Source: Sphingosinicella sp. LHD-64 (lineage in GTDB: Bacteria > Pseudomonadota > Alphaproteobacteria > Sphingomonadales > Sphingomonadaceae). Taken from it: a stretch of DNA of 64,000 nucleotides. Under the pieces are notes generated by a model. The model searched no databases, was not told the DNA's origin, and saw nothing but the letters and a program-made list of their open reading frames with translations. Shown piece by piece: positions 28,725 through 55,034 of this stretch (the stretch's first letter is position 1; the number at the start of each line of letters is the position of its first letter). The position numbers and the translations under genes are program-made. The stretch spans positions 124,001 to 188,000 of the forward strand of contig NZ_JAVIFV010000004.1 in the NCBI RefSeq assembly GCF_031157375.1. The letters run 5' to 3'.

Positions 28725-29032
28725 CTTTCTCCCCTCTCCGTTTGGCCCTCGGCGACTTGCGCGCCGATGAGGCGGATCCGTTGCCGGCAGGGGTAATGCG
28801 ATTGCGCCGCGATCCCCAAGAATAAATCGAACCGCATCGCATGTTTCGAGAAGGCAATAAGAAAAGGTTATTAATTCCGCCGATGCGGGCCATGCCAGAT
28901 CGCGGACGGATGCGGGGAGAGCCGCAGGCCGCCACCCGCGAAATGCCGTGAGGGGCTGGCGGGCCCGCCGCGTATCCATGACGAGCGCCATCAGAAACGG
29001 AAAGTCATGCGCGTCTGACGTCGCCGGGTGGA
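28725..29032. other. Divergent intergenic region
   Basis: About 308 bases between the TonB receptor (minus) and the DUF411 gene (plus). The middle part (28800-28890) is A+T-rich and probably holds the receptor promoter, but I see no convincing -35/-10 pair. The right part holds the ECF-type promoter at 28950-28976. Confidence 0.5.
28950..28976 (+). promoter_or_regulatory. ECF promoter motif upstream of DUF411
   Basis: GAGGGG (28950-28955), 15 nt, CGTATC (28971-28976). It is one of eight sites of this exact architecture in the window and ends 56 bases before the DUF411 start. Confidence 0.75.
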
Positions 29033-29563
29033 ATGGAGACTGAAGTGGGACCAACTCATCGGCTCTCCAGGCGCGGCCTGCTTGCCGGTGCCGGGGCCTT
29101 GGGAGCCTATGCTCTGATCGGCTGCTCGGCCGAAGAGGGGCGTCGCACCGCCGCCGGCGAAAATGCCGTTGCGCCGTCTTCCGCCGCGCGACGGGCCGCG
29201 ATGGTGGTTTACCGCGAGCCGAGCTGCGGATGCTGCGAAGCCTGGGCCCGAATGGCGCGCGCGCACGGCTATGCGGCGGAACTGGTCGATCGAACCGACA
29301 TCGCTGCCCTGAAGCAGCGCCTGGGCGTTCCCGCGCCGCTGACCTCCTGCCACACGGCTGTCGTGTCGTCTCTCGTGGTCGAAGGTCATGTCCCGCTGGA
29401 GCATGTCGACCGGCTCCTGCGCGATCGACCGACGGGCATATTGGGAATCGCCGTTCCCGGCATGCCGAGAGGGTCCCCGGGGATGGAGATGCCGGATGGC
29501 GCTCGGGACGACTTTCAAGTCATCGCCTTTGGCGCATCGGGCAGACGCTTTGTCTTCGCCTGA
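29033..29563 (+). CDS. DUF411 copper-associated protein with Tat-like signal
   Basis: A 176-residue protein with a twin-arginine signal (SRRGLLAGAGALGAYALIGC, the cysteine suggesting a lipoprotein) and a DUF411 domain: VVYREPSCGCCEAWARMARAHGY with the metal-type C-x-C-C motif, LTSCHTAVVSSLVVEGHVP and GIAVPGMPRGSPGMEMP. DUF411 proteins occur in copper and silver clusters and are thought to bind metal in the periplasm. A GTG at 29045 has a better-spaced ribosome site (GGAG) and would only shorten the N-terminus by four residues. An ECF-type promoter lies just upstream. Confidence 0.88.
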   Translation: METEVGPTHRLSRRGLLAGAGALGAYALIGCSAEEGRRTAAGENAVAPSSAARRAAMVVYREPSCGCCEAWARMARAHGYAAELVDRTDIAALKQRLGVPAPLTSCHTAVVSSLVVEGHVPLEHVDRLLRDRPTGILGIAVPGMPRGSPGMEMPDGARDDFQVIAFGASGRRFVFA

Positions 29564-29586
29564 GCAATTCGATGAGGGGGAAAAGC

Positions 29587-30355
29587 ATGACCTGCACTGG
29601 CTTACGAACCGCACTGGCTTTCGCCGCAGGCCTCACCGCCACAACCGCCTACGCGCACGATTTCTTCCTGCTGCCAGAGCGCTTCACGTCGCCGGCGCCC
29701 GGTGAGACGGCGATCCGCGCAACCGTTTCGGCGAACTTTCCGCGCTCGAAACTGTCGTGCCGGCGGATCGGGTGGGCCAGGTCGTGGCGAACGGGCCCGC
29801 CGACCCGCGCCTGCGCATTGTCGGACCGGGCGCCAACGCGCTCGACCTGAGCCTCTCCGTCCCGGCATCCGGGATCGTTGTCGCCGGGGTCGGTGCACGC
29901 CCGCGCGACGTGGACTATGGCGAAGACCGGATCGGCGCCATCCTGGAAGAATATCGCATCCCCGCCTCCGCCCTGGCCGCGCGCGAGGCCATGCCGCGAC
30001 CGGGGACGCTGCGCGTTTCCTCGAGGCGTTTTGCCAAGACGATCCTCTGCGCGGCCGCATGTACGGATCGGTCGGCGGCGAGCCGGCCTTTGGGCGCCGA
30101 CCTGGAATTTGTCGGCGTCGATGGCGGCCCGGACCATTTCGTGCTGTTCAGCCAGGGTCGACCGCTGCTCCAGCATCCGGTGGACATCGTGACGTCGGAC
30201 GGCAATCGCCGCCACGTCAGCAGCGACGCGCAAGGGCGCGTCCGCTTGCCCGACGAGGTGCGCGGAGCCGTGATGCTGTTCGCGGCGCTGATGGCGCCGC
30301 CGGCCCAGGGGACCGGTTCATTCTGAACCTGACCTCCCTCACCCTCTCGCGATGA
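29587..30355 (+). pseudogene. DUF4198 protein gene with two frameshifts
   Basis: Three frames together spell one DUF4198 protein. Frame one runs from ATG 29587 with a signal peptide and AHDFFLLPERFTSPAPGE. Near 29752 one base appears to be missing and the next frame continues VPADRVGQVVANGPADPR ... PRDVDYGEDRIGAILEEYRI ... SRRFAKTILC. Near 30308, in a G run, a second base is missing and the last frame gives DRFILNLTSLTLSR before the stop at 30353. Both shifts are -1 at or near G runs, so sequencing error is as likely as real decay. If repaired it would be a periplasmic protein of the kind found beside nickel and copper genes. Confidence 0.8.
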
Positions 30356-30429
30356 CATCGAAGGTTCTATCGGGGCGGCGGCGCGATTCAGCGAGGATCC
30401 GGCTCCGTCTGCGCGCGGGCGGCGCATGG

Positions 30430-30666
30430 CTAGAGATCGCGCGCATGCCAGAAGGCATCCAGCATCGAGGCGATTCCCAGGAGCGCCAGAACGATCGCAT
30501 CGTTGAACAGGTGCGGCTGGGACAGGCCCGCCACCGCGCCGTCCGTGGCGTCCGCCAGCCACGCGCCGAGCAGGGCGAGGAAGGCCAGGACCAGCAACAC
30601 CCGCCCGATCGCCACCATCGCGGCCGCGCCGCGACGCGAGTTCGGGCCATTCGATGCAGCGTTCAT
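30430..30666 (-). CDS. Small two-helix membrane protein
   Basis: A 78-residue protein starting at ATG 30666 after a strong AGGGAGGT site. It has two hydrophobic helices (AMVAIGRVLLVLAFLALLGAW and FNDAIVLALLGIASMLDAFWH). I recognise no family. It follows the secreted His/Tyr-rich gene on the same strand by 60 bases, so it may share the ECF-type promoter at 31093-31119. Confidence 0.6.
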   Translation of the reverse strand: MNAASNGPNSRRGAAAMVAIGRVLLVLAFLALLGAWLADATDGAVAGLSQPHLFNDAIVLALLGIASMLDAFWHARDL

Positions 30667-30726
30667 TGCGACCTCCCTGGTCAGCCGCTGTCCCTTCGGC
30701 ACCCTTTCGGGATCCGATGCAGCGGA

Positions 30727-31038: not shown

Positions 31039-31092
31039 CGAGGTTCTCCTACTGGCCCGCGCGAGGCGGGCGATCACCCCTGTCTGTCCAGT

Positions 31093-31119
31093 TATACGCG
31101 CCAGGACGCTCCAGCCCTC
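31093..31119 (-). promoter_or_regulatory. ECF promoter motif upstream of the His/Tyr-rich gene
   Basis: Minus strand GAGGGC (31119-31114), 15 nt, CGTATA (31098-31093), 54 bases before the GTG at 31038. Same spacing as the other sites. Confidence 0.75.
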
Positions 31120-31244
31120 GGATTCAAGCCCCCTGACCGAGGCTCGCGCGCCTCCAGCCGGCGCACCTGGACGCTCTTGATATTTGTGAACGGCAGGCGA
31201 CCGGCGGTCCGGCTGATCGTTGACAGATGCGTGGAGAGGTCTAG

Positions 31245-32058: not shown

Positions 32059-32076
32059 GACGCAAGGAAGAGCGTG

Positions 32077-38279: not shown

Positions 38280-38555
38280 ATGGCGGAAATAGACACGCTG
38301 CTGGCGCGACTGCGCGAAAGCCCGGTCCATCCGGGGCTGGACGGGCTTGATGCGGCGGTCATGGCGGAGCTGGCGGGGCGGCGGGCCGGACCGCAGCTGG
38401 GCGGCGGGGCGTTCATCCTTGCCGCGACCTTGGCGCTCGCGATCGGTATTGTCGGGTCGGCCGTCCCCGGCGCCCCGGCCAGGGCCGCGCCGGTCGCGCC
38501 ATTCGGCACCGCCCCGATGCTGGCGCCCTCGACGCTGCTGGGCACCGGGGAGTGA
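38280..38555 (+). CDS. CnrY-like membrane anti-sigma protein, copy 1
   Basis: A 91-residue protein with a cytoplasmic N-terminus (EIDTLLARLRESPVHPGLDG), one membrane helix (AFILAATLALAIGIVGSAVPG) and a short periplasmic tail ending PSTLLGTGE. It matches copy 2 at 45977-46252 in layout, and the tail of both ends in P-S-(T/S)-L-L. GGAGG precedes the ATG. By analogy with CnrYXH it would hold the sigma factor at the membrane until the sensor is metal-loaded. Overlaps the sensor gene by four bases (GTGA). Confidence 0.78.
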   Translation: MAEIDTLLARLRESPVHPGLDGLDAAVMAELAGRRAGPQLGGGAFILAATLALAIGIVGSAVPGAPARAAPVAPFGTAPMLAPSTLLGTGE

Positions 38556-38992
38556 GGGACTATAAGCGCCTGACCCTCTTCGCGGTCATCGCCTTCGCGG
38601 CGGCGATCGCCGGCGTGGTCGTCGGCCGTACCTTCGTCGTCCCCGACAGGCCGGTCGAGAATGAACTGCATGACCTGCTGCACAGCCAGCTCGACCTCGA
38701 CCCGCAGCAGCGCGCGCGGATCGAGGTGATCGAACGGGACTTCGCGACCCGGCGGCACGCGCTCGAGCGCGAACTCAGGGACGACAATGTCCGCCTTGCC
38801 GCCGCGATCCAGGCCGAGCGAGGCTACGGACCCAGGGTCGCCGCCGCCGTCGACCGCTCGCACGCGGCGATGGGGCAGCTTCAGAAGGAAACGCTCGAGC
38901 ATATTTTCGCTATGCGCGGCGTCCTGCGCGCCGATCAGGCCACGCGGTTCGACGAGGCGGTGGTGAAAGCGCTGACCGCCGGCGACAGGTGA
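38552..38992 (+). CDS. CnrX-like periplasmic metal sensor, copy 1
   Basis: A 146-residue protein with an N-terminal membrane anchor and a helical periplasmic Metal_resist domain (ELHDLLHSQLDLDPQQRARI ... LQKETLEHIFAMRGVLRADQ). The five metal ligands reported for CnrX (His42, His46, Glu63, His119, Met123) are all present at a constant offset of two: His40, His44, Glu61, His117, Met121. It would sense periplasmic metal and release the sigma factor from the Y protein. GTG start, coupled to genes on both sides. Confidence 0.88.
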   Translation: MRDYKRLTLFAVIAFAAAIAGVVVGRTFVVPDRPVENELHDLLHSQLDLDPQQRARIEVIERDFATRRHALERELRDDNVRLAAAIQAERGYGPRVAAAVDRSHAAMGQLQKETLEHIFAMRGVLRADQATRFDEAVVKALTAGDR

Positions 38993-39552
38993 CGTTCGAC
39001 CTTGCCGGCTGCACCGATGGCGAGCTCGCGACCCGCGCCCTGGCCGCAGAGCAGACGGCCTATCGCGAGCTGGTCCGGCGCCATCGCGACTGGATCTACC
39101 GTCTCATCCGCCATCATGTCGGAGATCCCGACGAGGCGCTCGACGTCACCCAGAATTGCTTCGTCGCCGCCTTCTCGGCGCTCGGGCGGTACGATCCCGG
39201 GCGGCCCTTTCGCCTGTGGATCGCCCGGATCGCGATCAACAAATGCAATGACTGGGCAAGACGGCGTGCGGTTCGAAAGTTCCTGACCTTCGGGGCGCAG
39301 CGCGGCGACGTCGAACAGATGGCCGACGATGCGGTGCCGGTCGATGAGACGCTCGGCGGCAAGCAGGAGCTTGACCGCGCGATGCGCGCCATCGCGAACC
39401 TGCCCGCCGCGCTCAAGGAACCGCTGATCCTCAGAACCCTGGAGGGCCTCGGCCAGGCCGAGACGGCACGGGTCCTGCGGATCAGCGAAAAAGCCGTCGA
39501 AACCCGGCTCTATCGGGCGCGCAGAAAGCTGGGCGAGATGCTGGCGGATTGA
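38989..39552 (+). CDS. CnrH-like ECF sigma factor, copy 1
   Basis: A 187-residue ECF sigma factor from a GTG overlapping the sensor stop. Region 2: LVRRHRDWIYRLIRHHVGDPDEALDVTQNCF and FRLWIARIAINKCNDWARRR; region 4: LPAALKEPLILRTLEGLGQAETARVLRISEKAVETRLYRARRK. It is closely similar to copy 2 at 44960-45538. It probably controls the adjoining cusCBA operon or its own module. Its promoter target is not clear (see the weak site at 38191). Confidence 0.9.
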   Translation: MTFDLAGCTDGELATRALAAEQTAYRELVRRHRDWIYRLIRHHVGDPDEALDVTQNCFVAAFSALGRYDPGRPFRLWIARIAINKCNDWARRRAVRKFLTFGAQRGDVEQMADDAVPVDETLGGKQELDRAMRAIANLPAALKEPLILRTLEGLGQAETARVLRISEKAVETRLYRARRKLGEMLAD

Positions 39553-40477: not shown

Positions 40478-41221
40478 TCAGGGCGCGAGCGCCGGCCCCT
40501 TCTTGGGCGCCGGCCGGCGCCGGCGCAGCCAGCGAAAGTCCGCCCGCCCGAAGCTCTTGAACAAGAGGTAGAAGCCGGTTCCCGACAGCCAGAGCGCGCT
40601 CAATCCGACGAAGATGATCAGCGGATGGTTGAAGCTCGTGCGGCCGACATAGTCCATATTGTGGAGCATCCAGAAAAAGTCCCAGGTGCGCCACGTATCG
40701 CCCCGCATCACCAGGAAACGGCCCGTCTCGGCGGAGACATAGGCGCTGCTGTTGGCCTCATCGGCGAAATTCACGCGCCACATGCGCCCCGCATGCTCGC
40801 GCGCCTCGAGATTGGGCCGCGCGAGCGCCTCGACGCTGCGGATGGGCGCGCCGTTCATGCCATTGGCGACCGCGCGTGCGATCCGTTCATCGACCGTCAC
40901 CGGCGCGCCATTGGTGGCGTCGGCAAGGCGCAGACCGCGGGCGGTGTGCAGTTCGTAGACCGGCCGGCCGGCGAGATTGCGCAGGGTCACCCCCGACACC
41001 GGCCCCGTGCCCGGGATCGCCGCCGGATCGATGAAGGCGGCATTGGCCGGAAGCGGCGGCGCCGCCGCCATGGCCATGTCATGACCGCCGACCTCGTCCA
41101 TGTCGAGCAACGCCATCATCGAGCCGCTGAACGCCCAGAGCACGAACTGGAGGCCGAGGATCAGTCCGACCCATTTGTGGATGCGGCGGAACAGGAGCGG
41201 GGACAAGCGAATGCGTTTCAT
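40478..41221 (-). CDS. PepSY-domain membrane protein
   Basis: A 247-residue protein starting at ATG 41221 (MKRIRLSPLLFRRIHKWVGL). It has an N-terminal membrane helix, a periplasmic PepSY-like part (YELHTARGLRLADATNGAPV ... WRVNFADEANSSAYVSAETG) and a second helix before a basic tail. Such pairs sit beside TonB receptors, often for iron or other metals, and some act as reductases. It overlaps the neighbouring PepSY gene by ATGA. Confidence 0.83.
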   Translation of the reverse strand: MKRIRLSPLLFRRIHKWVGLILGLQFVLWAFSGSMMALLDMDEVGGHDMAMAAAPPLPANAAFIDPAAIPGTGPVSGVTLRNLAGRPVYELHTARGLRLADATNGAPVTVDERIARAVANGMNGAPIRSVEALARPNLEAREHAGRMWRVNFADEANSSAYVSAETGRFLVMRGDTWRTWDFFWMLHNMDYVGRTSFNHPLIIFVGLSALWLSGTGFYLLFKSFGRADFRWLRRRRPAPKKGPALAP

Positions 41222-41934: not shown

Positions 41935-41950
41935 GATCCCGCCTCCCCGA

Positions 41951-44659
41951 TCAGAACGCGGTGCGGAAGCCGACATAGAACCGGCGACGGAGCAGGTCGT
42001 AGGTCATCGTGTCGGTGTTGGCGTCGGTGAAGCTCTGGATATAGGGCGCCCGCCTGTCGAACAGGTTGTCGACGCCGATCTGGAAGCGGGTCCGCTCGTC
42101 GAGTTCGAAGGCGACCTGGAGGTTGTGATAGAAGACGTTCGGCGTGCGATAGCCGATGTCGCCCGGCGCCGCGTTGAAGTCGGTCGCCCGGCCGATCCAC
42201 TGGGTCGACCAGGTCAGGCTCATGCCGTTGCGCTCGGCCGTCAGCACGCCATAGCCGCGCCATTTCGGATAGCCGCCATTGCCCCCGCCGATGAAGCCGT
42301 CGAAATCGATCGGGTCGCCGCCGGGGAAGGGAAGGACGACATATTTGTTGAGCCAGGTGACGTTGAGATCGAGGCTGATCGCGACGTCGCCGATCGTCCG
42401 GTTGTAGACCAGGCCGAGGTCGAGCCCGTTCATCTGCTCGCGGCCGGTGTTGATCGGCTGGGCGGACAGATAGGTGACCTCGCCGGTCAGCGCGCTGCGC
42501 GTGAAATCGTCGCAGAACTCGCTCGAAAGGTTGGTGCTGGCATAGCAGACCGCGAGCTTGGTCGAACCGGGGATCGCCCGGATGGCGTCGCGGATATCGA
42601 TGTCGAACCAGTCGGCGGTCAGCGACAGGCCGGGCACCAGGCCGCGCGGCTGGATCACCGTCCCGATCGTCCAGGTCTGCGAGCTTTCCGGCCGCAGATT
42701 CTCGTTGCCGCCGGCCGTGGTCAGGATCGTCGTGCCGAGCTGGACATAGTTGGTGGGAACGCCGGACGCCTGGCAGTTGGCGATCAGCGTCGCATTGCCG
42801 CTCGTGGCATAGCGGCTGCACGGGTCGGTGGTCGTGAGATTGCCTTCCGACACCCCGCCGAACAGCTCCGGCACATTGGGAATGCGAAAGCCGGTCCCGT
42901 AGGTGCCGCGCAGCCGGATGGCGTCGTTGATCACCCAGTTGGCGCTGAGCTTGTAGTTCCAGTCGCCGCCGAACAGATCATAGTCCGAATAGCGGATCGC
43001 GCCGCCGAGCGTCAGCGCCCGGACGAAGGGCATGTCGGCGAGCACCGGCACCGACAGTTCGAGATAGCCCTCCTTGGCCGTGCTCGAGCCCGAGATCGGA
43101 TCCTGCTGGTTGGTGTTGGCGATGCCGAGCACGGTTAGTGGATCGGGGTCGCGCCAGCCTTTCTCCCGTCGATAGACCGCGCCCGCGGCGAACGAGACCG
43201 GCCCGGCGGGCAATCGGAAGAGGTCGCCGGTGAGGTCCGCGGTGACGCTCGCCAGCTCGTTGCCGCCCCGGTCGCGCGACGTGAACAGGATATAGTCGAG
43301 CACCTGCGGCGTCAGGTCGCCAAAGCCGAGATAGTCGCCGCACGGAATGGCCGCGCCCGCCGCCAGGCTGCACTGGCTGGTGTCCAGCGTGTTGCGCACC
43401 CGCTCGAGATTGGCGATGTTGGTCGAGCCGTCGACCGCGGTGTTGCGCCCGAAGCTGCCCGCGACCTCCCACGACCAGCCATTCTCCAGCCGGCCGCGCA
43501 GCCCGAGCGTGCCCTGCCAGGTGTCGGTGTCCTGAAAGAATTGACGCGGCCCCGGCTCGGCGAGCCGGCGCTGGATGAGGACGATGTCCTGGCCCGTCGG
43601 GTTGGTCGGATTGCTCGCCGGGATGGCGAGGTTGCGCAGCACCCCCGGCGTCGCGATCTGCCGCGACTTGCGGAAGGTGTAGAGGAACTCGCCGAACGCC
43701 TCGATATCGTCGGTGACGTCGTAATTGGCGAAGAAGGCGGTGCTGACGCGCTCGACCGGGCTCACCGCATTGAGGAACGGGTTCGAATTGAAATTGTGCT
43801 TGGCGGCGCTGTAGGGCTCGTAGAAATCCCCGTCGCCGCCGGCGACCTGGTTGAAGTTGATCTGCTGCCCGTTCGGCAGCACGGCGCGGCCGCCGATCGT
43901 CGCGGCGCTGTTGACGCAGGCGAGCGTGCCGGGGGTGGTCTCGGCGAGCGAGCAGGGTGCGCGGCTTGCCATGTTGACCGCGCGGGTCCGCTGATAGGTG
44001 ACGGCGGCCAGGAACCCGCCGCGATCGTTGCGCAGGCCCCACAGGAGATCGACCGTGAGGTCGGAGCCGTCGCCGCGCTCGGTGAGCCCGTAGCGCGCGC
44101 TGATGCCCAGGCCCTCATAGTCGGTGCGCGTCACCAGATTGACCACGCCCGCCATCGCGTCCGCACCATAGATCGCCGAGGCCCCGTCCTTGAGCACGTC
44201 GGTGCGCGCGAGGGCGACGACCGGGATCATGTTGAGGTCGGGAGACGAGTTGGCGCCGGTGCCGCCCGCGACGAGGCGGCGCCCGTTCAGCAGGACCAGG
44301 GTGCGCTTGATGCCGAGGCCGCGCAGATTGACCTGCGCCGTGCCATAGCCGTTATTGGCCCAATAAGCCGAGGTCTGGTTGCCGGCGAAGCCGGCATTGG
44401 CGGGCAGGCGCTGCAATACGGTCTCGATATTGACGAGACCGGTATTCTCGATCTGCTCGGCGGAGATGACCGTGGCCGGACCGACGCCGGCAAGGTCCTG
44501 CCGGCGGATGCGCGAGCCGGTGATGACGATGTCGCCCGCCGCGGCGTCCGCGCCTTCGGCCGGCGCGGGCGTCGCCGGGGGGTCCGCTTGCGCCATAGCC
44601 GGCGCGGCCACGCCGGCCGCCAAAGCCGTTCCAAGCAAAAGAGCCGTCCTTGCCTTCAT
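41951..44659 (-). CDS. TonB-dependent receptor of the PepSY operon
   Basis: A 902-residue receptor; I choose ATG 44659 since GGGAGA is well spaced there. Signal peptide (ALLLGTALAAGVAAPAMA), TonB box-like DIVITGSRIR, plug (IETVLQRLPANAGFAG, RTDVLKDGASAIYGADAMAG) and a barrel ending in LLRRRFYVGFRTAF. No STN domain. Upstream lie a HutC-type operator (44709-44718) and an ECF-type promoter (44788-44814). This points to regulated uptake of a metal complex or organic ligand; which one is unknown. Confidence 0.92.
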   Translation of the reverse strand: MKARTALLLGTALAAGVAAPAMAQADPPATPAPAEGADAAAGDIVITGSRIRRQDLAGVGPATVISAEQIENTGLVNIETVLQRLPANAGFAGNQTSAYWANNGYGTAQVNLRGLGIKRTLVLLNGRRLVAGGTGANSSPDLNMIPVVALARTDVLKDGASAIYGADAMAGVVNLVTRTDYEGLGISARYGLTERGDGSDLTVDLLWGLRNDRGGFLAAVTYQRTRAVNMASRAPCSLAETTPGTLACVNSAATIGGRAVLPNGQQINFNQVAGGDGDFYEPYSAAKHNFNSNPFLNAVSPVERVSTAFFANYDVTDDIEAFGEFLYTFRKSRQIATPGVLRNLAIPASNPTNPTGQDIVLIQRRLAEPGPRQFFQDTDTWQGTLGLRGRLENGWSWEVAGSFGRNTAVDGSTNIANLERVRNTLDTSQCSLAAGAAIPCGDYLGFGDLTPQVLDYILFTSRDRGGNELASVTADLTGDLFRLPAGPVSFAAGAVYRREKGWRDPDPLTVLGIANTNQQDPISGSSTAKEGYLELSVPVLADMPFVRALTLGGAIRYSDYDLFGGDWNYKLSANWVINDAIRLRGTYGTGFRIPNVPELFGGVSEGNLTTTDPCSRYATSGNATLIANCQASGVPTNYVQLGTTILTTAGGNENLRPESSQTWTIGTVIQPRGLVPGLSLTADWFDIDIRDAIRAIPGSTKLAVCYASTNLSSEFCDDFTRSALTGEVTYLSAQPINTGREQMNGLDLGLVYNRTIGDVAISLDLNVTWLNKYVVLPFPGGDPIDFDGFIGGGNGGYPKWRGYGVLTAERNGMSLTWSTQWIGRATDFNAAPGDIGYRTPNVFYHNLQVAFELDERTRFQIGVDNLFDRRAPYIQSFTDANTDTMTYDLLRRRFYVGFRTAF

Positions 44660-44708
44660 ATCCATTCTCCCTGTCTGTCCATTCTGTTTTCGGGCAAAGA
44701 GCATCAGT

Positions 44709-44787: not shown

Positions 44788-44814
44788 AATACGCGCCGCC
44801 AAGCCGAACCCCTC
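44788..44814 (-). promoter_or_regulatory. ECF promoter motif upstream of the receptor
   Basis: Minus strand GAGGGG (44814-44809), 15 nt, CGTATT (44793-44788). Transcription would pass over the HutC-type operator, so the operon appears to have two inputs. Confidence 0.72.
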
Positions 44815-44959: not shown

Positions 44960-45538
44960 TCAACGCGCGCGATATTGGGCGAGCTTGTTGCGGGCCCGAT
45001 AGAGTCGGGTTTCGACCGCCTTCTCGCTGATCTTGAGCACCTGCGCGGTTTCCGCCTGCGAGAGCCCCTCGATGGTGCGCAGGATGAGCGGCTCCTTGAG
45101 CGCCTGGGGCAAGTCGGCGATGGCCCGCCACAGCCGCTCCAGTTCCTCCTTGTCGGCCGCGCGCTCGCTGACCGAGGGGGCCGGATCGGGCACTTCGGCA
45201 GCGGCCTGCGTCAGCGCGCTCGCGCCGAACAGCAGCCTGCGGACCGTGCGGCGGCGCGCCCAGTCGCGGCATTTGTTGATGGCGATGCGCGACAGCCAGG
45301 CCCGCAGCGGCCGGGCCTGGTCGTACCGGTCGAGATGGAGATAGGCGGACGTGAAACACTCCTGCACCAGGTCGAGCGCGTCGTCGGGATTGCCGACATA
45401 GCCGCGGATCAGCCTGAAGATCGGTTCGCGGTGGCGCCGCATGAGCTCGGCGAAGGCGGTCTGCCGGCCGGCAAGCGCGAGTGCAGCAAGTTCGCCATCG
45501 GTAAATTGCTCGCGATCCACGTCATTCCGGGTCCGCAT
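44960..45538 (-). CDS. CnrH-like ECF sigma factor, copy 2
   Basis: A 192-residue ECF sigma factor, similar to copy 1: region 2 (LMRRHREPIFRLIRGYVGNPDDALDLVQECF; LRAWLSRIAINKCRDWARRR) and region 4 (LPQALKEPLILRTIEGLSQAETAQVLKISEKAVETRLYRARNK). It is last in the Y-X-H module and overlaps the sensor gene by 17 bases. The module is preceded by GAGGGC-15-CGTATT (46281-46307), so this sigma is the best candidate to read the eight-site motif. Confidence 0.9.
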   Translation of the reverse strand: MRTRNDVDREQFTDGELAALALAGRQTAFAELMRRHREPIFRLIRGYVGNPDDALDLVQECFTSAYLHLDRYDQARPLRAWLSRIAINKCRDWARRRTVRRLLFGASALTQAAAEVPDPAPSVSERAADKEELERLWRAIADLPQALKEPLILRTIEGLSQAETAQVLKISEKAVETRLYRARNKLAQYRAR

Positions 45539-45980
45539 TGGCGGTGAGCGCCTGGACCACCGCGCGATCGAACCGTTCCGCCTGGTCGGGTCGCAGGACC
45601 GCGCGCATCGCGAAAATATGGGCGAGCGTCTCCTTTTGCAGGTCCCCCATCACCGCATGCGACCGGTCGACTTCGGCCGTCACCTGCGGGCCATAGCCAT
45701 GCTCCGCCTGGATGGCGGCCGCGAGCCGCGCATTGTCGGCGCGGATCTCCAGCTCCAGCGCCTGGTGCCGGACCGCGAAACGCTCCTCCAGCGCCGCGAT
45801 CCGGACGCGTTGCTGGGGATCGAGATCGAGCTGGTCGTGGAGCAGCTTGTGCAAGGCGGTGGCCTGCTCGGCCCGTGGATCGGGCAGGCTTCGACCGACC
45901 AGCACGCCGGCCAAAGCGGCGAGAAACGCCACGGCGGCGAGGATGACGAGGGTGCGGCCGAACCTGCCGGTCGTCCTCAT
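45522..45980 (-). CDS. CnrX-like periplasmic metal sensor, copy 2
   Basis: A 152-residue sensor with a membrane anchor (TLVILAAVAFLAALAGVLVG) and the helical Metal_resist domain. The CnrX ligands are matched at an offset of two: His44, His48, Glu65, His121, Met125. It keeps the QLDLDPQQR and KETLAHIFAMRAVLRPDQ blocks of copy 1. All five ligands being kept in both copies argues that both still bind metal. ATGA overlap with the Y gene. Confidence 0.88.
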   Translation of the reverse strand: MRTTGRFGRTLVILAAVAFLAALAGVLVGRSLPDPRAEQATALHKLLHDQLDLDPQQRVRIAALEERFAVRHQALELEIRADNARLAAAIQAEHGYGPQVTAEVDRSHAVMGDLQKETLAHIFAMRAVLRPDQAERFDRAVVQALTANADPE

Positions 45981-46252
45981 TCGGACAGCAGGCTCGACGG
46001 CGTCAGATGTGCCGACGTCAGCGGATAGAGCGCCGGCTCAGGGGCGGTCGCGCGGCCGGGCAGGGCGCCGCCGACGATCCCCATGGCGAGCGCGGCGACG
46101 GCCATCCCGGCAGCATAGCGCGTCGGGATCTCGCGAAGCCGCGGGCCCAGCTCGGCGATCCGCTCGAGCACCGTCGCGTCGATCCGGGCCAGGGCTTGCG
46201 GCACGGGCTGTCTGGAAAGCACGTCCAGGGCGCGGTTGATATCGTCGTTCAT
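45977..46252 (-). CDS. CnrY-like membrane anti-sigma protein, copy 2
   Basis: A 91-residue protein from ATG 46252 (GAGGTGAAG before it). N-terminal cytoplasmic part (NDDINRALDVLSRQPVPQAL), one helix (AAGMAVAALAMGIVGGALPG) and a tail ending TPSSLLSE. First gene of the second Y-X-H module. The upstream frame to 46327 lacks a start signal. Confidence 0.78.
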   Translation of the reverse strand: MNDDINRALDVLSRQPVPQALARIDATVLERIAELGPRLREIPTRYAAGMAVAALAMGIVGGALPGRATAPEPALYPLTSAHLTPSSLLSE

Positions 46253-46280: not shown

Positions 46281-46307
46281 AATACGCGCCCGGGTCGCCG
46301 CGCCCTC
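46281..46307 (-). promoter_or_regulatory. ECF promoter motif of cnrYXH copy 2
   Basis: Minus strand GAGGGC (46307-46302), 15 nt, CGTATT (46286-46281), 28 bases before the Y gene. It suggests that the sigma factor activates its own module. Confidence 0.8.
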
Positions 46308-46341: not shown

Positions 46342-46368
46342 CAGGGAAGGCCCGTCCGGCTGCGTATA
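46342..46368 (+). promoter_or_regulatory. ECF promoter motif before the NTF2-like gene
   Basis: CAGGGA (46342-46347), 15 nt, CGTATA (46363-46368). The -35 departs from the consensus at its first and last base, but the AGGG core, the -10 and the spacing are kept. It is divergent from the cnrYXH site. Confidence 0.62.
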
Positions 46369-46490
46369 GAGGCGTGGGACCGGTGTCGGCATGATGGCCG
46401 CATCGCCGGATCGCGCCTGCGCGTTGTCAAACGGGTGCGATCGACCAACCGCGGCGCCGCGTGCGCTGCTACAACAAGGGGAACGCTTTG

Positions 46491-46976
46491 ATGCATATGT
46501 TCATCGCCGGGGCCATGGCCGCGGTCAGCCTGGTGGCCGCGCAATCGGCCAACGCCCATGAAACGTCCCGCGCCGCCGACGTGGCCGCGGTGACGGCCGT
46601 GCTTGGCGAATATCGATCCGCCATCGAGCGGCTCGATGCCAGTGGCACGGAGCGCCTGTTCGTCGCCGATTCGCAGATCTTCGAAAATGGCGGCGTCGAA
46701 GGCTCCTACACCAATTATCTCAGCCATCATCTGGGCCCGGAGCTTCGCGCCTTTCGCAGCTTCCGCTTCTCGGAGGTCAATGTCGACATTCGCTTCGAAG
46801 GGCCGGTCGCGCTGGCGACGGAGAGCTACGGCTTTCGGATCGAGCCCGCGCAAGGCGATCCGGTCGAGCGCCGCGGCGTGACCACCAGCGTGCTGCGCAA
46901 GGACGGCAATGTCTGGCGCATCGTCTCCCTGCATGGCTCGTCCCGGGCGCCGCGACGGCCCGCCGCAAGCAACTAG
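46491..46976 (+). CDS. Secreted NTF2/SnoaL-like protein
   Basis: A 161-residue protein from ATG 46491 with a signal peptide (MFIAGAMAAVSLVAAQSANA) and an NTF2-like fold (DUF4440/SnoaL type): VAAVTAVLGEYRSAIERLDA, LFVADSQIFENGGVEGSYTNY, VATSVLRKDGNVWRIVSLHG-like end. Such domains bind small ligands; the exact role is unknown. The ECF-type promoter upstream places it in the metal regulon. Confidence 0.78.
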   Translation: MHMFIAGAMAAVSLVAAQSANAHETSRAADVAAVTAVLGEYRSAIERLDASGTERLFVADSQIFENGGVEGSYTNYLSHHLGPELRAFRSFRFSEVNVDIRFEGPVALATESYGFRIEPAQGDPVERRGVTTSVLRKDGNVWRIVSLHGSSRAPRRPAASN

Positions 46977-47422: not shown

Positions 47423-48058
47423 TCAGATCATCATATGCTCGAGCCCGTGCGTGAGTGCCCCGCCCAGCCAGCCCTGGACGAGCAAAGCGAGGGTGACGAG
47501 GCCGAGCGTCCAGACCATGGCGCGGCTGTTCACCACCGACGCCTTGCGCCAGGCCAGAAGGGCGATGGCGGCGCCGATCACGCCAAGGCCGGTTCCCGCC
47601 CAGCGATGGGACTCCAGCAGCGGTCGCGCCGACAGCGAAAAGCCGGCATTCAGCCATCCGAGCAAGGCCGCGCCGAAGGCGGCGACGCCGGCAAAGATGA
47701 GGATGCCCCGAATGAGGTCGACCGTATCGCCGCGCCGTCGTGCGATGATCAGCGCAAGCCAACTGACCGGAATGAGGGCAATGGGGAAATGGACGGCAAA
47801 CGGGTGCATGCGCCCGGCCCAGTCGAGGATCCGTCCCGGCCAGGTCTTGGGCGCCTCCTCGGCCATGTCGTGCCCGGGCGACATCGTGCCGTCCATGGTC
47901 ATGCCCGGCATCGCATTCGCCGGAGCGTCGGCGGCCTTGGCTTCGGCCTGCTCGTTGTGATTCTTGTGCGCGACGGCCGGTATGGTCGCCGCCGCGAAGC
48001 CGGCGAAAAGCAGCAACATCAGCAGCGCAAGACGCGCGGTCAGGCGTTTCAAAACCAT
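47423..48058 (-). CDS. DUF2231 copper-cluster membrane protein
   Basis: A 211-residue protein with an N-terminal signal, a His/Met-rich stretch (HKNHNEQ; MPGMTMDGTMSPGHDM) and four membrane helices carrying the DUF2231 pattern GRMHPFAVHFPIALIPVSWL. It overlaps copB by 10 bases. It could handle copper or a haem-linked redox step at the inner membrane, but the function of the family is open. Confidence 0.82.
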   Translation of the reverse strand: MVLKRLTARLALLMLLLFAGFAAATIPAVAHKNHNEQAEAKAADAPANAMPGMTMDGTMSPGHDMAEEAPKTWPGRILDWAGRMHPFAVHFPIALIPVSWLALIIARRRGDTVDLIRGILIFAGVAAFGAALLGWLNAGFSLSARPLLESHRWAGTGLGVIGAAIALLAWRKASVVNSRAMVWTLGLVTLALLVQGWLGGALTHGLEHMMI

Positions 48059-49386
48059 GTTCTTACCCCCATGAGAAAGCTCCAGCCGCCGACGTCGTCG
48101 CCGGCGAGACGTCTGAACCGCGCCGTGTCGCCAAAGGCGCGCTCATATTGGACGCCCACATAGGGCGCGAATTCCGGCACGAACTCGTAGCGCAGGCGAA
48201 GCCCCGCCTCGGCCGTCGACAGACCGGAGCCGATGTTAAGCTCGGGCACGTCCTGGAAGGAAAGGTCGAACTCGGCGGTGGGCTGGAGGATCAGCCGCTG
48301 CGTGATCCGCAGGTCATATTCCCCCTCGAAACGCGCGGACAGGTCGCCCTTCTGCGACACGAAGACGGCGCCGTCGACCTCGAACCAATAGGGCGCCAGT
48401 CCCTGGATGCCGAGCACGAGATAGCTCCGGTTCGGCTCCGGGCGGATGTCGTAGCGAACGCCCGCCTGCAGGTTGAACCAGGGATCCAGCGCCCGGCTCC
48501 ACAATGCCTGGACCTCGACCTGTTCGGGTGTCTCCCCGAAGGTCCCTTCGCCCTCGGTCTTGAGCCAGAGGCGGTTGATCGCGCCGCCATACCAGGCCTG
48601 GGCATCCCAGGCGTAGCCGTCGCGACCGTTCTGGATGCGCGCTTCGAGCTGATCGACGAGGACACGGTAGGAGCGGATCGAGCCGTGCTCGGTCAGGAAA
48701 ATGTCGCGCGCGACAACCATCTCCCCGCCCGGATAGACGGTGTCGGCGGCGTGGGCCGGGCCGGCGAGCGCGGCCGGGGACGGCGGCGCGACGGGCGGAT
48801 CGGCCGCGTCCATCGCGCCCATGTCGTGCCCCGGCATCTGGCCGGCCGGCGCCGACGGCTGGGCTGGCATATTGCCCATGTCATGTCCCGGCATCTGCGC
48901 GGGCGGGCGCTGGGCGCCACTCATGTCGTGCCCGGCATGCGGATCGGCGGCCGGCGGCGAAGGCGGGTTCGCGCCCCCCATCCGGCTCATGTCATGGCCG
49001 GACATGGGTGGGGTAGGCGGCGGCGTCCCCGGCATGGCGTGGCCCGCATGCGGGTCCGTGGCGGGCGGCGTCCCGGTCCGGCCCGTCGGCATCGCGCCCA
49101 TGTCATGGCCTTGCGGCATCTGGCCGCCCGTGCCGGCCGGCATGGCATGGCCGGCATGCGGGTTGGCCGCCGGCGCGGGCGGGCATTGCGCCGGGGCAGC
49201 CTGGGCGCCGTGGCCGGCATGACCCGGTTGTCCGGCCGGACCGGCCTGCGGGCAGGGCGCCGCCTGTGCACCGCCCGCCTGGGGCCGCGCCTCAGCGGCC
49301 GGGGAGGCCGGCATGGCATGGCCGCTATGCTGCGCGATCGCCGGCGCCGACACGGAGGCGGCGAGAAGAACTAGAAAGCGCGTCAT
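48049..49386 (-). CDS. copB: CopB-type outer-membrane copper resistance protein
   Basis: A 445-residue protein from ATG 49386, overlapping the copA stop (ATGA). A signal peptide is followed by about 190 residues of tandem copper-type repeats (DPHAGH..., MPGHDMG), then the CopB barrel (DTVYPGGEMVVARDIFLTEH ... LSFQDVPELNIGSGLSTAEA ... FLMGVRTWF). It sits in the outer membrane and binds or exchanges copper. The repeat region is unusually long and rich in Pro, His, Met. Confidence 0.92.
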   Translation of the reverse strand: MTRFLVLLAASVSAPAIAQHSGHAMPASPAAEARPQAGGAQAAPCPQAGPAGQPGHAGHGAQAAPAQCPPAPAANPHAGHAMPAGTGGQMPQGHDMGAMPTGRTGTPPATDPHAGHAMPGTPPPTPPMSGHDMSRMGGANPPSPPAADPHAGHDMSGAQRPPAQMPGHDMGNMPAQPSAPAGQMPGHDMGAMDAADPPVAPPSPAALAGPAHAADTVYPGGEMVVARDIFLTEHGSIRSYRVLVDQLEARIQNGRDGYAWDAQAWYGGAINRLWLKTEGEGTFGETPEQVEVQALWSRALDPWFNLQAGVRYDIRPEPNRSYLVLGIQGLAPYWFEVDGAVFVSQKGDLSARFEGEYDLRITQRLILQPTAEFDLSFQDVPELNIGSGLSTAEAGLRLRYEFVPEFAPYVGVQYERAFGDTARFRRLAGDDVGGWSFLMGVRTWF

Positions 49387-51218
49387 GCGGCGTCTCCATC
49401 GAGCGGACGGACCGACACGACACGCATCATCCCGGCATGCATGTGGAACAGCAGATGGCAATGGAACGCCCAGTCGCCGGGCGCGTCGGCGGTGAGATCG
49501 AACCGGACGAACCCGCCCGGAAGGACGTTCACCGTATGCTTGAGCGGCTGCGCGCCATCATGCCCGTTCACGATCTCGAAAAAATGGCCGTGAAGATGGA
49601 TGGGATGCGCCATCATGCTGTCGTTGACGAGCTTCACCCGCACCCGCTCGTTGCGCTCGAAGCGGATCGGCTCGGCGCCCTCGCTCATGCGCACGCCGTC
49701 GAACGACCACATGAACCGCTCCATGTTGCCGGTCAGGTGAATCTCGACGGTGCGTGCGGGCGGCCGCTGGTCGGGGCCGGGCGTCAAAGCGACGAGGTCG
49801 CGATAGGTCAGAACCTTGTGGCCGACATCGTCCAGCCCGAGGCCGGGATCGCCGGTCCGGTCCTGCGGCATCGGCGCGATCATGTCGACGCCGGGTCCGA
49901 GCCGGACCTGCGGCGCGTTGGCCGGGTCGCGCATGCTGTGGCCGCCCATCGCGGCCATCGCGCCGTCCGGTGCGGCGCCGGCCGGGGCCGCGGCGGGCGC
50001 GGCGCCATGATCCATGCCCTGCATCGATCCATGGTTCATTCCGGGCATCGATCCGCCCTGCGCCCCGGGCGGCGCGCCATGGTCCATGCCGCCCATGTCC
50101 ATGCCCATGTCGCGCATGGTCAGGACCGGCCGCTCGCGCAGCGGCGGCACCGGTGCGGTCATGCCCAGGCGCGGCGCCAGGGTGGCCCGGCCGAGCCCCG
50201 AGCGGTCCATCGCCTCGGCAACGAACGTATAGGCGCGGTCTTCGCCGGGCTGCACGACGACGTCATAGGTCTCGGCGACCGAGATCTGGAACTCGTCGAC
50301 GGTGACCGGCCTCACATTCTGCCCGTCGGCGTTGACCACCGACATCGGGAGGCCGGGGATGCGGACGTTGAAGATGGTCATCGCCGCGGCGTTGATGATC
50401 CTGAGACGAACGCGCTCGCCGGGCCGGAACAGTCCGGTCCAGTTCTCGTCCGGGCCGTGGCCGTTGATCAGGAACGTGTAGGTCGTGCCGTTGACGTCGA
50501 GGATGTCGGTCGGGTCCATCCGCATCTGCGCGAACATCGCGCGGTCGGCGGCGGGCATCTGCTGGTCGCGACGGCCCGAGGCGCGGCCGGCCAGCGTCAT
50601 CCGGTTGCGGTTGAAATAGCCGCCCTGCTGCCGCAGCTTGGTGATGATCTGGTGCGGGTGGAGGAAGCTCCAGTCGCTGAGCACGATCACATGCTCGCGA
50701 TCATAGGCCACCGGGTCGGGACCGGCGGGATCGATCACCAGCGGGCCGTAATGGCCCTGTTGCTCCTGCAGGCCGGAATGGCTGTGAAACCAGTAGGTGC
50801 CGGACTGGCGGACCGGGAACTCGTAGGTGAAGGTCTCGCGCGGGCGGATGCCGGGAAAGCTGACCCCCGGCACCCCGTCCATCTGGAACGGCAGGATGAG
50901 GCCGTGCCAGTGGATCGAGGTGTCCTCGTCGAGCGTGTTGGTGACGCGGAGGCGGACGTTCTGGCCCTCGCGCAGGCGAATGAGCGGCGCCGGCACGGTG
51001 CCGTTGATGGTCACGGCGTGACCGGTGCGCCCGCCGGTGGTGAACGGCGCATGGCCGATGGTGAGGCGGATGTCCTCGCCCGACAGCGTCGGCATGTCCG
51101 CCGCGATCCCGGCCGTGCCGCTCTGCGCCCAGGCCGGAAACAGGCCGCCAAGGCCGAGGCTGGCCGCGCTGAGCGCTCCGGCGCGAAGCAGCGTCCGGCG
51201 ATCCATCATGTCGTTCAT
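49383..51218 (-). CDS. copA: Copper-resistance multicopper oxidase (CopA/PcoA type)
   Basis: A 611-residue Tat-exported oxidase (MDRRTLLRAGALSAASLGLG). Copper ligands are visible: HWH (His103, His105), HSH (His145, His147), HPIHLHGH and HCHLLFHMHAGM near the end. A Met/Gly/His-rich insertion (MDMGGMDHGAPPGAQGG; MPGMNHGSMQGMDHG) lies between residues 370 and 430. It oxidises Cu(I) to Cu(II) in the periplasm. It shares a symbol with the ATPase at 16838 but is unrelated. First gene of the operon running to 47018. Confidence 0.95.
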   Translation of the reverse strand: MNDMMDRRTLLRAGALSAASLGLGGLFPAWAQSGTAGIAADMPTLSGEDIRLTIGHAPFTTGGRTGHAVTINGTVPAPLIRLREGQNVRLRVTNTLDEDTSIHWHGLILPFQMDGVPGVSFPGIRPRETFTYEFPVRQSGTYWFHSHSGLQEQQGHYGPLVIDPAGPDPVAYDREHVIVLSDWSFLHPHQIITKLRQQGGYFNRNRMTLAGRASGRRDQQMPAADRAMFAQMRMDPTDILDVNGTTYTFLINGHGPDENWTGLFRPGERVRLRIINAAAMTIFNVRIPGLPMSVVNADGQNVRPVTVDEFQISVAETYDVVVQPGEDRAYTFVAEAMDRSGLGRATLAPRLGMTAPVPPLRERPVLTMRDMGMDMGGMDHGAPPGAQGGSMPGMNHGSMQGMDHGAAPAAAPAGAAPDGAMAAMGGHSMRDPANAPQVRLGPGVDMIAPMPQDRTGDPGLGLDDVGHKVLTYRDLVALTPGPDQRPPARTVEIHLTGNMERFMWSFDGVRMSEGAEPIRFERNERVRVKLVNDSMMAHPIHLHGHFFEIVNGHDGAQPLKHTVNVLPGGFVRFDLTADAPGDWAFHCHLLFHMHAGMMRVVSVRPLDGDAA

Positions 51219-51364: not shown

Positions 51365-51391
51365 TATACGCGGCTCGGGACGCTGGCCCTT
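51365..51391 (-). promoter_or_regulatory. ECF promoter motif upstream of copA
   Basis: Minus strand AAGGGC (51391-51386), 15 nt, CGTATA (51370-51365), 147 bases before the ATG. One mismatch in the -35. Confidence 0.7.
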
Positions 51392-52102: not shown

Positions 52103-54724
52103 TTAGATGACGAAGCGGTCCCAGCCGGCATAATGCTCCCGGCTCCGGTTGCCGCGCGGCGGGCTGAGCCAGATCACCAGCAGGCCCAAGATCTCGCAGG
52201 CGATGGTGGCGGTCGTCCCGCCGCCGTCCAGCCAGAAGGGCGCCGCGATCAGCCAGAAGCCCAGGAGGGTGTTGACGAAGCGCAAGGCGCGAACCGCCTC
52301 GCAGGTCGCGATGATCGACACGGTCACCAGCAGCGCGCCGACGACATGGTCGCTATTGGCCATCGCCCCGGTCGTGCCGAAGATCGGGCGGGTCAGCATC
52401 AGGAAGAGGCCGATGAGAATGGTGAGGAACAAGGTTCGCGGCAGGGTCATGCCCCGGATCGCATCCGCCCACCAGATGGCCGGGCTCGCCATCATGTCGG
52501 TATCGTCCGGCGCGCCGGCCTCGACCGCGTCGCCCTTGAAGAAGGTCCGCACCAGCGGCTTGCCGCGGCAGCGGGCCCAATAGAGGAACTGGCCCATCGC
52601 GATCACCTCGTCGATGGCGAAGGGCACCATGATCAGCATCGCGAGCGCCGCGATCAGCGCCAGCGTGCTCCAGGTCCCGATCATGATCGGCTGGATGATG
52701 ATGAAATAGATGCTGATGACGCCGAGCGGGATCACGAGGATGCCGAAAAAGGTCACCATCCAGGGCATGGTGCGCCAGCGATCGCGCGTGCCCATCACCG
52801 CCATCAGGATTTCGAGCAGGTAGCTGATTGCGCCGAGGCCGGCGTCGGGGATCGGCCAGGCCTGCGACACCGAGGAGGTGATGATCTCCTCCGTGCCGTT
52901 GCGCGGATCGGCCGCCGCGCCGGCGAAGAACGGCTCCCACACGCCGTCGATATGCCCGAGCTGGTAGGCGGTGAGATAGCGCGAGATGACGAGGCCGACG
53001 AGACCCATCGCCACGATCGGCAGCCGCTGCGCGTCGGTCGACGGCGAATAGGTCCAGCCGGGCGGGATGGTCTTGGGATCCATCATCCCGGCCATGCTCA
53101 TCCCGGGCATCATCGGCACCACCACCGCAAAGGCGATGGCGAGCGCGCCGACGATGAGGTCGGTATTGTACTGCGCCGCCGACGGGCTCCACAGCAGCAG
53201 CGGCGCGAACAGGAGCCAGATGCCGACAAAGGCCGCGCCCCACTGCCCCCACCAGCGGGTGCGCTTCGACAGGGAGGCCGCGCCGAGCAGGGCGAGCGCG
53301 AGGCCGCTCACCATATCGCTCATCGCGAGCATGTCCGCCCGCCATTCGATCGGCGCGAGCCCACGCTCGATCGTCACCGCCCGGACCGTCTCGGCAACGT
53401 CCTGGGTTGAGAAGGCGTCATAGATGAACGGGCTCGACGCCAGCCACAGGCCGAGCCCGATATTGGCGAAATGGGCCCAGCGCGAGCGCCGCTCGTCGCG
53501 CGCCATCATCGCCATATGGCCGTCATGCGGGTCCGGCCCGTCGGCGCCATGGGCCGTCGGGCTGGCGCCCGGGGCGGTCTTGCCGGCCCCCTCCGAATGA
53601 CCGTCATGGGAGACCGGCTTCTTGTACCAGGCGACGAGATTGGCGTTGAGCTTGTTCGCCTTGTACCACCCTTGCGGATCGCGCTTCAGCGCCTCGATCA
53701 TGTCGGGAAGCGTGGCGCGCAGGCGATGCGCCGGCGCCCAGTCGAGCAGTGCCTTGGCGCGCGAAATGTCGAGAATATAATGGTCGTTGCTGGCCTCGAT
53801 CATCCACGGCCGGATGAAGCTTTCGCTGCCCAGTGCCTGGTCCTGGAGCATGACGCCCGCTTTGGCGAGCGGCTGCGGAATGCGCAGCGTCGCCCAGTCC
53901 TCGCCGTGCAGCTGGCGCCCGACGATGTCCTGGATTTCGGCATAGCCGGGCGCCTCGGGCTCGCCGAGGAGCAGGGGCAGCTCCGAAGGCAGCGCCTTGC
54001 GGCGCTCGACCAGCCGGGAGATCGCGTCGGTGAGATCGTCGCGGTGGAGGAAGGACTGCGCCGCGCACAGCATGCCCGGATAAAAATGCGAGGTCAGCCG
54101 ATGCTCGTAGATCCGGGCGATCTGCTCGGCAAGAAACGGCGCCCGGCCCTCGTCCTCGTAGACACCGGCGATGCGCAGGAACACGACCGGGACCTTGCCG
54201 CGCCGCGCATGCAGCAGCGCTTCCGCCTTCGCCTTGGATTGCGGATAGGGCCAGCGCGGATCGAGGGGGGAATCCTCGTCGATCCGCGCCTCGGGCCTGC
54301 CGGTCGGGCGGTGGACGAGCATCGTGCTCGCATAGATGAACTGCTCGACCTCGAACGACTGCAGCGCGTCGATCAGCCGGCCCGTCCCGGCCACCGTGAT
54401 CTCGTCGTAGAGCGGATTGGGTTCGCCCGAGACGTCGTAATAGGCGGCCAGGTGGACCACCGAGGCGATGCGCCCGCCGAAACGCGCGCGAACCTGCTCG
54501 AGCGCGGCGTGGACGCTGGCGTCGGAGCTCAGGTCGATATCCACCGCGATCGCCGGCTCGGGCGGCGCCGGCGGGCCGGCCCGGTCGAGGCCGACGATCT
54601 CATAAGCGCCGGCCAGGCGAGCGATGACCGCCGATCCGATGAAGCCGCTCGCGCCGGTGACGAGGACGACGCCGTGCGGCTGTTGCGGGCCGCTCGTCCG
54701 ATCGGTGCGGTCGGATTGTGCCAT
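52103..54724 (-). CDS. Fused NAD-dependent epimerase, SPW and VKOR-like membrane protein
   Basis: An 873-residue fusion. Residues 15-330 are a short-chain epimerase/dehydratase: GxxGxxG as VTGASGFIGS, catalytic Y-x-x-x-K as YPQSKAK. A His-rich linker (SHDGHSEGAGK; DPHDGHMAMMARD) follows, then SPW-type helix pairs (LGLWLASSPFIYDAF) and a domain like the vitamin K epoxide reductase relatives (VWEPFFAGAA, SDAGLG-like PDAGLGAISYLLEIL, FAIDEVIAMGQFLYW). Where such relatives have a C-x-x-C (as I recall CTLCL), this one has STLAL, so thiol redox activity is unlikely. It begins at the ATG overlapping the small gene's stop. Confidence 0.82.
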   Translation of the reverse strand: MAQSDRTDRTSGPQQPHGVVLVTGASGFIGSAVIARLAGAYEIVGLDRAGPPAPPEPAIAVDIDLSSDASVHAALEQVRARFGGRIASVVHLAAYYDVSGEPNPLYDEITVAGTGRLIDALQSFEVEQFIYASTMLVHRPTGRPEARIDEDSPLDPRWPYPQSKAKAEALLHARRGKVPVVFLRIAGVYEDEGRAPFLAEQIARIYEHRLTSHFYPGMLCAAQSFLHRDDLTDAISRLVERRKALPSELPLLLGEPEAPGYAEIQDIVGRQLHGEDWATLRIPQPLAKAGVMLQDQALGSESFIRPWMIEASNDHYILDISRAKALLDWAPAHRLRATLPDMIEALKRDPQGWYKANKLNANLVAWYKKPVSHDGHSEGAGKTAPGASPTAHGADGPDPHDGHMAMMARDERRSRWAHFANIGLGLWLASSPFIYDAFSTQDVAETVRAVTIERGLAPIEWRADMLAMSDMVSGLALALLGAASLSKRTRWWGQWGAAFVGIWLLFAPLLLWSPSAAQYNTDLIVGALAIAFAVVVPMMPGMSMAGMMDPKTIPPGWTYSPSTDAQRLPIVAMGLVGLVISRYLTAYQLGHIDGVWEPFFAGAAADPRNGTEEIITSSVSQAWPIPDAGLGAISYLLEILMAVMGTRDRWRTMPWMVTFFGILVIPLGVISIYFIIIQPIMIGTWSTLALIAALAMLIMVPFAIDEVIAMGQFLYWARCRGKPLVRTFFKGDAVEAGAPDDTDMMASPAIWWADAIRGMTLPRTLFLTILIGLFLMLTRPIFGTTGAMANSDHVVGALLVTVSIIATCEAVRALRFVNTLLGFWLIAAPFWLDGGGTTATIACEILGLLVIWLSPPRGNRSREHYAGWDRFVI

Positions 54725-54915
54725 CAATCTTCCTCCGTGCGGCCGGCGAACCGCGACGGGGGCTTTGCGCCGCCGTTCGCGGCCGCGACCCGCGCCAGAT
54801 AGAGCTCGGAAAGGGCATAGTGGACGGCAACGGCATGCCGGTTGCTCGAGCGCCGGGCGCACTCGATCTCCTGCTCCGCCCTGCGCTCGAAATAGACCCG
54901 ATCGTCATCGGACAT
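54724..54915 (-). CDS. Small conserved-type hypothetical protein
   Basis: A 63-residue protein from ATG 54915 after GGAGGA: MSDDDRVYFERRAEQEIECA, then helix HAVAVHYALSELYLARV. The pattern is common in sphingomonads as a small helical protein of unknown role. It overlaps the epimerase fusion by ATGA. The ECF-type promoter at 54947-54973 is 31 bases upstream. Confidence 0.72.
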   Translation of the reverse strand: MSDDDRVYFERRAEQEIECARRSSNRHAVAVHYALSELYLARVAAANGGAKPPSRFAGRTEED

Positions 54916-54946
54916 GAAGAGGTCCTCCCGGACCGTTGCCTTGAGG

Positions 54947-54973
54947 ATTACGCGCGGGCGCCGCCAACCCCTC
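54947..54973 (-). promoter_or_regulatory. ECF promoter motif of the epimerase operon
   Basis: Minus strand GAGGGG (54973-54968), 15 nt, CGTAAT (54952-54947). Same spacing as the other sites. Confidence 0.72.
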
Positions 54974-55007
54974 AGGGCGCCGCCCGTCAGGCTGGCAGGG
55001 ACGGAGC

Positions 55008-55034
55008 GAGGGCTCGGCCGCGCCGGCGCGTATC
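55008..55034 (+). promoter_or_regulatory. ECF promoter motif facing the lasso operon
   Basis: GAGGGC (55008-55013), 15 nt, CGTATC (55029-55034), plus strand, with no other plus-strand gene before the lasso precursor 348 bases further on. It forms a divergent pair with 54947-54973, 34 bases apart. Confidence 0.6.

Follow-up and report, generated by a model that had tools for sequence, protein, structure and literature searches.

The window, that is, the whole stretch of 64,000 nucleotides of Sphingosinicella sp. LHD-64 DNA that was analysed, contains an island of 26 kb whose genes were assigned mainly by Pfam matches. At its left end lie a DUF411 gene (29033-29563, plus strand) and a gene for a small secreted protein rich in His, Tyr and Gly (31038-30727, minus strand; no Pfam match). 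A first cnrYXH-like module (38280-39552, plus strand) follows the cusCBA genes. On the minus strand come two PepSY_TM genes (40478-41937), located after the gene of a TonB-dependent receptor with Plug and barrel domains, here called tonB2 (41951-44704), and then a second cnrYXH module. Further on there are a SnoaL/DUF4440 gene (46461-46976, plus strand), the copA-copB pair (48049-51218, minus strand; copA at 49383-51218 with 836 bits to TIGR01480, copB at 48049-49461 with the CopB domain) and a gene for an epimerase-VKOR-SPW fusion protein (52103-54724, minus strand), preceded by a small gene (54915-54724). The island is followed by a lasso operon (55382-57973, plus strand), which consists of the precursor gene (55382-55513, assigned by alignment of precursors from plus-strand lasso loci only), gene B (55572-56231, lasso_biosyn_B2) and gene C (56228-57973), and by the gene of an AtxE2-family lasso isopeptidase (57943-60054, minus strand; NF033523, 814 bits).

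All three genes of the second cnrYXH module are on the minus strand. The product of cnrH2 (44960-45538) is an ECF sigma factor of the CnrH type (Pfam Sigma70_r2/r4_2), and among solved structures, the only ones compared, its best match is CnrH (4cxf, E-value 9.6e-31; the next one is 8.5e-17). The gene cnrX2 (45522-45980) encodes a periplasmic metal sensor with a Metal_resist domain and matches to the NccX/CnrX structures. Its putative ligands H44, H48, E65, H121 and M125 are invariant in 60 of 60 distinct CnrX sequences, and we take them to be equivalent to H42, H46, E63, H119 and M123 of CnrX, and the His/His/Glu/His/Met set to be that of the nickel/cobalt sensor. From the gene order, cnrY2 (45977-46252) is assigned as a putative membrane anti-sigma factor of 91 residues with one hydrophobic stretch discerned by eye; it has no Pfam match and no meaningful structure match.

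Eight predicted ECF promoter sites of the form GAGGG-N15-GCGTAT are found at the positions listed in the initial annotation, except that the left ends on the minus strand are one base higher. Five of them are exact: 28950..28975 (+) before the DUF411 gene, 31094..31119 (-) before the gene of the small secreted protein, 44789..44814 (-) before tonB2 and the two PepSY_TM genes, 46282..46307 (-) before the second cnrYXH module, and 55008..55033 (+), which points at the lasso operon and whose target is uncertain. The other three have a single mismatch each, namely 46342..46367 (+; C for G in the -35 box) before the SnoaL/DUF4440 gene, 51366..51391 (-; A for G in the -35 box) before copA-copB, and 54948..54973 (-; A for the last T of the -10 box) before the small gene and the epimerase-VKOR-SPW gene. 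The sites at 46282(-) and 46342(+) form a back-to-back pair. The previously given tolerance of up to two -35 mismatches thus overstated the spread. At seven sites the distance from the -10 box to the start codon is 29-147 nt (55 nt for 31094(-)), in agreement with the 28-150 bases proposed earlier. The site at 46282(-) lies 29 nt before cnrY2, which confirms that one of them precedes a module encoding an ECF sigma factor and suggests autoregulation. The eighth site does have the direction of the lasso operon, and it is 348 nt away from the precursor ATG at 55382.

The 15-nt spacing holds throughout: a scan of gaps of 9-22 nt in the window gives eight sites at 15 nt and at most one at any other gap. 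A position weight matrix, built from the eight sites themselves, ranks them as the top eight of the window with scores of 18.7-21.9, followed by 14.7 at 3509(-) and then 10.8. When each site is left out in turn the scores are 12.0-21.1, and those of 46342 (12.0) and 54948 (14.3) drop below that of 3509(-). The latter site (3509-3534, minus strand) was overlooked in the initial list; it is an exact GAGGG-N16-CGTAT outside the island, has CCGTAT as in C. metallidurans, and has no clear target gene.

In the 3.89 Mb genome the pattern AGGG-N15-GCGTAW has 16 matches, eight of which are the island sites within 26 kb, while the reversed control has 10 matches genome-wide. The corresponding binomial probability is 5e-14, a figure that is flattering because the pattern was drawn from the same sites. 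Exact GAGGG-N16-CGTAT gives 11 matches in the genome, six of them in the window, compared to two for the control. When two mismatches are allowed in this form, the window has 48 matches against 56 expected, that is, no enrichment. The signal is in the tight form, in which CGTA is preceded by G, and only this form was therefore used. The eight sites are genuine and exceed what chance would give.

Outside the island there are eight matches over 3.86 Mb, roughly what the reversed control gives, and the regulon therefore looks local to the island rather than genome-wide. All eight outside matches lie within open frames of at least 100 codons, but so do the island sites, such that this does not place them inside genes; a crude count of covering frames (3-4 for the outside sites, 1-3 for the island sites) separates the two groups poorly in G+C-rich DNA. 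One motif copy outside the island, with ACGTAT (G000:C4:215030-215055, L010), is followed, after ca 360 nt, by a further TonB receptor gene.

We now turn to the relatives of the second sigma factor. A scan of 84,980 species genomes yielded 171 such relatives. The 80 best ones were retained, and 72 of these carry Sphingomonadales names. Around these best 80 of 171, the motif has 306 matches (187 distinct contexts), compared to two for the reversed control. Among the distinct sites, 179 have the 15-nt gap and at most five have any other gap of 9-22 nt, many of the loci being near-identical and hence non-independent. In 72 of the 80 relatives a codirectional strict motif precedes the sigma gene by at most 1.6 kb, at a distance of 500-1000 nt in 53 cases and 1510-1548 nt in 19; the remaining eight have none in this range, and one of these loci ends early. 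For 172 of the 187 distinct sites the start of a recurring open reading frame lies within 250 nt, a count that includes some wrong frames and has no control set. The recurring genes downstream are cnrY, CopC, CopD, a CopA-type multicopper oxidase, DUF305, a cytochrome and a pyridine nucleotide-disulphide oxidoreductase, and a heavy-metal P-type ATPase is downstream at three sites in the 80 loci. The motif recurs before cnrY, copA and copC-copD, and also, at a near-fixed distance, before one TonB receptor.

The number of motif copies tracks the presence of the sigma factor across 148 other genomes of the family. With the pattern YRAGGG-N14-YGCGTAW, the mean is 3.77 sites in the 64 genomes with the sigma and 0.73 in the 84 without it, and the corresponding values for the reversed control are 1.19 and 0.64 (p ~2e-17 for site number versus sigma presence, uncorrected for kinship). 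At least two sites are found in 12 of the 84 genomes lacking the sigma, compared to 8 of 84 for the control. The 64 sigma-bearing genomes have 241 sites in total, and among the matches listed (104), 81 are within 8 kb of a sigma match.

The known system closest to this arrangement is CnrYXH of C. metallidurans. According to PMC9045368, transcription begins 23 bp upstream of cnrY and 24 bp upstream of cnrC; cnrYp and cnrCp are described as CnrH-dependent, and an RpoD-dependent promoter is also named at cnrY. In the pMOL28 sequence we read the boxes AAGGGGG...CCGTATA before cnrY and GAGGGG...CCGTATA before cnrC, and in both cases there are seven bases from CGTAT to the published start. The two systems share the Y-X-H order, the homology of sigma and sensor, and the RAGGG and CGTAT boxes. 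They differ in that the gap between the boxes is one base longer in C. metallidurans, that CGTAT is preceded by C there and by G here, and that a nickel/cobalt RND efflux operon is controlled there, whereas the gene set here is for the most part one of copper genes, along with a TonB receptor.

Because the sites are clustered, have a fixed gap, co-occur with the sigma factor in the family and resemble the boxes at the CnrH start sites of C. metallidurans, we assign them as a promoter set of the CnrYXH type. The most probable explanation, to which we give a probability of roughly 0.8, is that they are the -35/-10 promoters of a CnrH-type ECF sigma factor, most likely that at 44960-45538, which would control the 26-kb island. 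Three features of CnrYXH systems are present, namely a sigma factor closest to CnrH, the CnrX ligands and a CnrH-type promoter before the Y gene. In the proposed mechanism, the periplasmic CnrX would bind excess metal, probably copper, upon which CnrY would release CnrH. RNA polymerase with CnrH would then start ca 8 bases after CGTAT at the GAGGG-N15-GCGTAT promoters, each of which is predicted to be active, and turn on cnrYXH itself, copA-copB, the TonB receptor together with its two PepSY membrane proteins, as well as some accessory genes. Copper is the putative signal, the counterpoint being the CnrX ligand set, which we take to be of the nickel/cobalt type. The initial annotation had proposed a single metal-stress regulon read by the second CnrH. 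An ECF promoter set, autoregulation and a copper-type gene set are supported and the second CnrH is favoured as the reader, while the lasso operon as a member is so far unsupported.

The conservation of the individual promoters differs considerably. A motif is found upstream of copA in 49 of the 77 relatives that have this gene; tonB1 and gntR were left out of this survey of homologs, as their query intervals contained stops. For tonB2, orthologs were collected regardless of the sigma, and 17 of the 24 loci, window included, have the motif 72-86 nt before the start, exact in 16 and with one mismatch in L189. This applies to 16 of 16 loci at 79-100% identity and to one of eight (L180) at 67-74%. 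In this set, L188 and L191 come from a single gene that is split in two, and L171-L174 have one site sequence in common.

The accessory sites, on the other hand, are poorly conserved, which counts against the explanation given above. Before DUF411 homologs the motif is seen in only two of the 53 loci having one, which is weak conservation, and before SnoaL homologs in one of five. The latter locus, L101 from Sphingomonas sp. ID1715, has the motif before tonB2, the SnoaL gene, the epimerase gene and cnrYXH, with a differing gene order. In none of the 80 loci is there a homolog of the small secreted protein (31038-30727). For the epimerase/SPW orthologs, 2-3 of 29 other loci have a site: L140 (exact, 99 nt), L139 (one mismatch, 77 nt) and perhaps L159, whose exact site is only 11 nt from the start, which makes it unsure. 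Eight of 30 loci had been flagged; three with a site at -58 were dropped since these are inside the gene, and L146 was dropped because of a mismatch in the -10 core and a distance of 291 nt. The convincing sites are thus those of the window, L139 and L140.

Control of RND metal efflux is another trait of CnrYXH systems, and here no motif is found at the cus genes. In the relatives, none of 37 loci with cusA and none of 32 with cusC have a motif within 250 nt, and in the window no variant with fewer than two mismatches is found upstream of the cus genes or cnrY1 when gaps of 13-19 nt are scanned. Compared to the classic CnrH regulon, the efflux half is accordingly absent.

Two explanations can be considered for the site at 55008(+), for which any role is conjectural. 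The first is that it is the leftover half of a divergent pair, the original gene having been replaced by the lasso cassette. Back-to-back motif pairs are common near these sigma factors, and the block shared by the lasso operons begins ca 100 nt downstream of the site. However, the epimerase ortholog of L101 has a single site with none opposite, an opposite site is present in 0 of 29 other epimerase loci, and no relic gene is seen. This history is quite possible, although we lean against it.

The second, that 55008(+) truly drives the lasso operon and that the peptide is made within the metal response, we find doubtful. The motif is exact and correctly oriented, and a simple scan of 54700-55600 gives neither a sigma-70-like promoter nor a terminator-like site. 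Nevertheless, the start codon is 348 nt away, and the leader common to three lasso operons starts at ca 55131, downstream of the site, which is not shared. Furthermore, the strict motif is absent upstream of lasB in all 28 other lasso loci that have 676-850 nt there, enough for a placement like that in the window. These loci come from the best 29 of 72 genomes with a match; the 29th, L122, also has none, with only 104 nt upstream of lasB covered. For these reasons the link to the lasso operon is weak and a minority reading. One motif copy in L109 lies within lasC and does not count as an upstream site. The leader block (55131-55230) contains a repeated GCACATGTCCA-like word, possibly the site of a regulator. 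Since AtxE-type lasso clusters have been described beside FecI/FecR-type sigma genes, a link between lasso peptides and sigma factors is as such not new. In the open-access literature searched we found no report tying a lasso peptide to an ECF sigma factor in Sphingomonas, and none of a GAGGG/CGTAT sigma-factor promoter; a broader query on lasso peptides pointed to one review (PMC9266682).

As to which sigma factor reads the sites, the second CnrH is the likelier candidate, favoured but unproven, because the motif precedes its own operon, while the first CnrH (38989-39552) has none that we could find and carries Asn where CnrH2 and 59 of 59 other rows of the alignment have Arg. This column is presumably within region 2.4, which reads the -10 box. 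These two differences speak against the alternative that the first CnrH, or both, read the sites and that the island is a regulon shared by two sigma factors. With 62% identity and a region 4 that does not differ over ISEKAVETRLYRAR, which we take to be the recognition helix, both proteins might read them, but on balance we consider this unlikely. Finally, that the motif is the binding site of some other regulator and no promoter is very improbable in view of the two boxes at a fixed gap and the likeness to the sequence 7 bases before the published CnrH-dependent starts, even though the promoter role is here predicted from sequence.

If the sites are indeed promoters of the CnrH-type sigma, they amount to a precise promoter code, open to test, for a sphingomonad family of metal-stress sigma factors. 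The predicted copper regulon would include a TonB receptor, and induction by excess metal is unexpected for an importer. One can speculate further that a sphingomonad CnrH-type sigma was rewired from nickel/cobalt efflux to copper, capturing the TonB receptor and its PepSY_TM partners and, here, also switching on a lasso peptide. We regard this complete scenario as improbable; if true, production of a threaded peptide would belong to the copper response.

The promoter boxes of Sigma-F from Caulobacter crescentus probably differ from the present motif. Sigma-F is likewise an alphaproteobacterial ECF factor of metal stress (PMC3511200). CorE of Myxococcus xanthus is also an ECF sigma tied to copper genes, but as described in PMC10141476 its copper sensor is a Cys-rich C-terminal extension of the sigma factor itself, whereas a separate CnrX/CnrY pair is present here. 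In nickel-adapted Sphingobium sp. ba1, copA, copB and copC are raised and TonB-type genes are differentially expressed, as given in PMC5557971, a pattern that would fit such a regulon.

Two further arrangements of the motif were observed in the relatives. In L073 (15171-15201), L076 (15174-15204) and L085 (15135-15165) there is a palindromic promoter-like element, GAGGGATACG...CGTATCCCTC; on its far side no open reading frame of at least 60 residues is nearby in two of the three loci, and on the other it precedes a gene that by eye is DUF305-like. In L084 (4548-4579), L095 (4538-4569) and L082 (5248-5279), two copies on opposite strands are interleaved in a segment of 32 bases that has a methyltransferase gene on one side and a heavy-metal P-type ATPase gene on the other. 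L084 and L095 have both copies in the strict form, the minus copy of L082 ends in GCGTAG, and the element could serve both directions.
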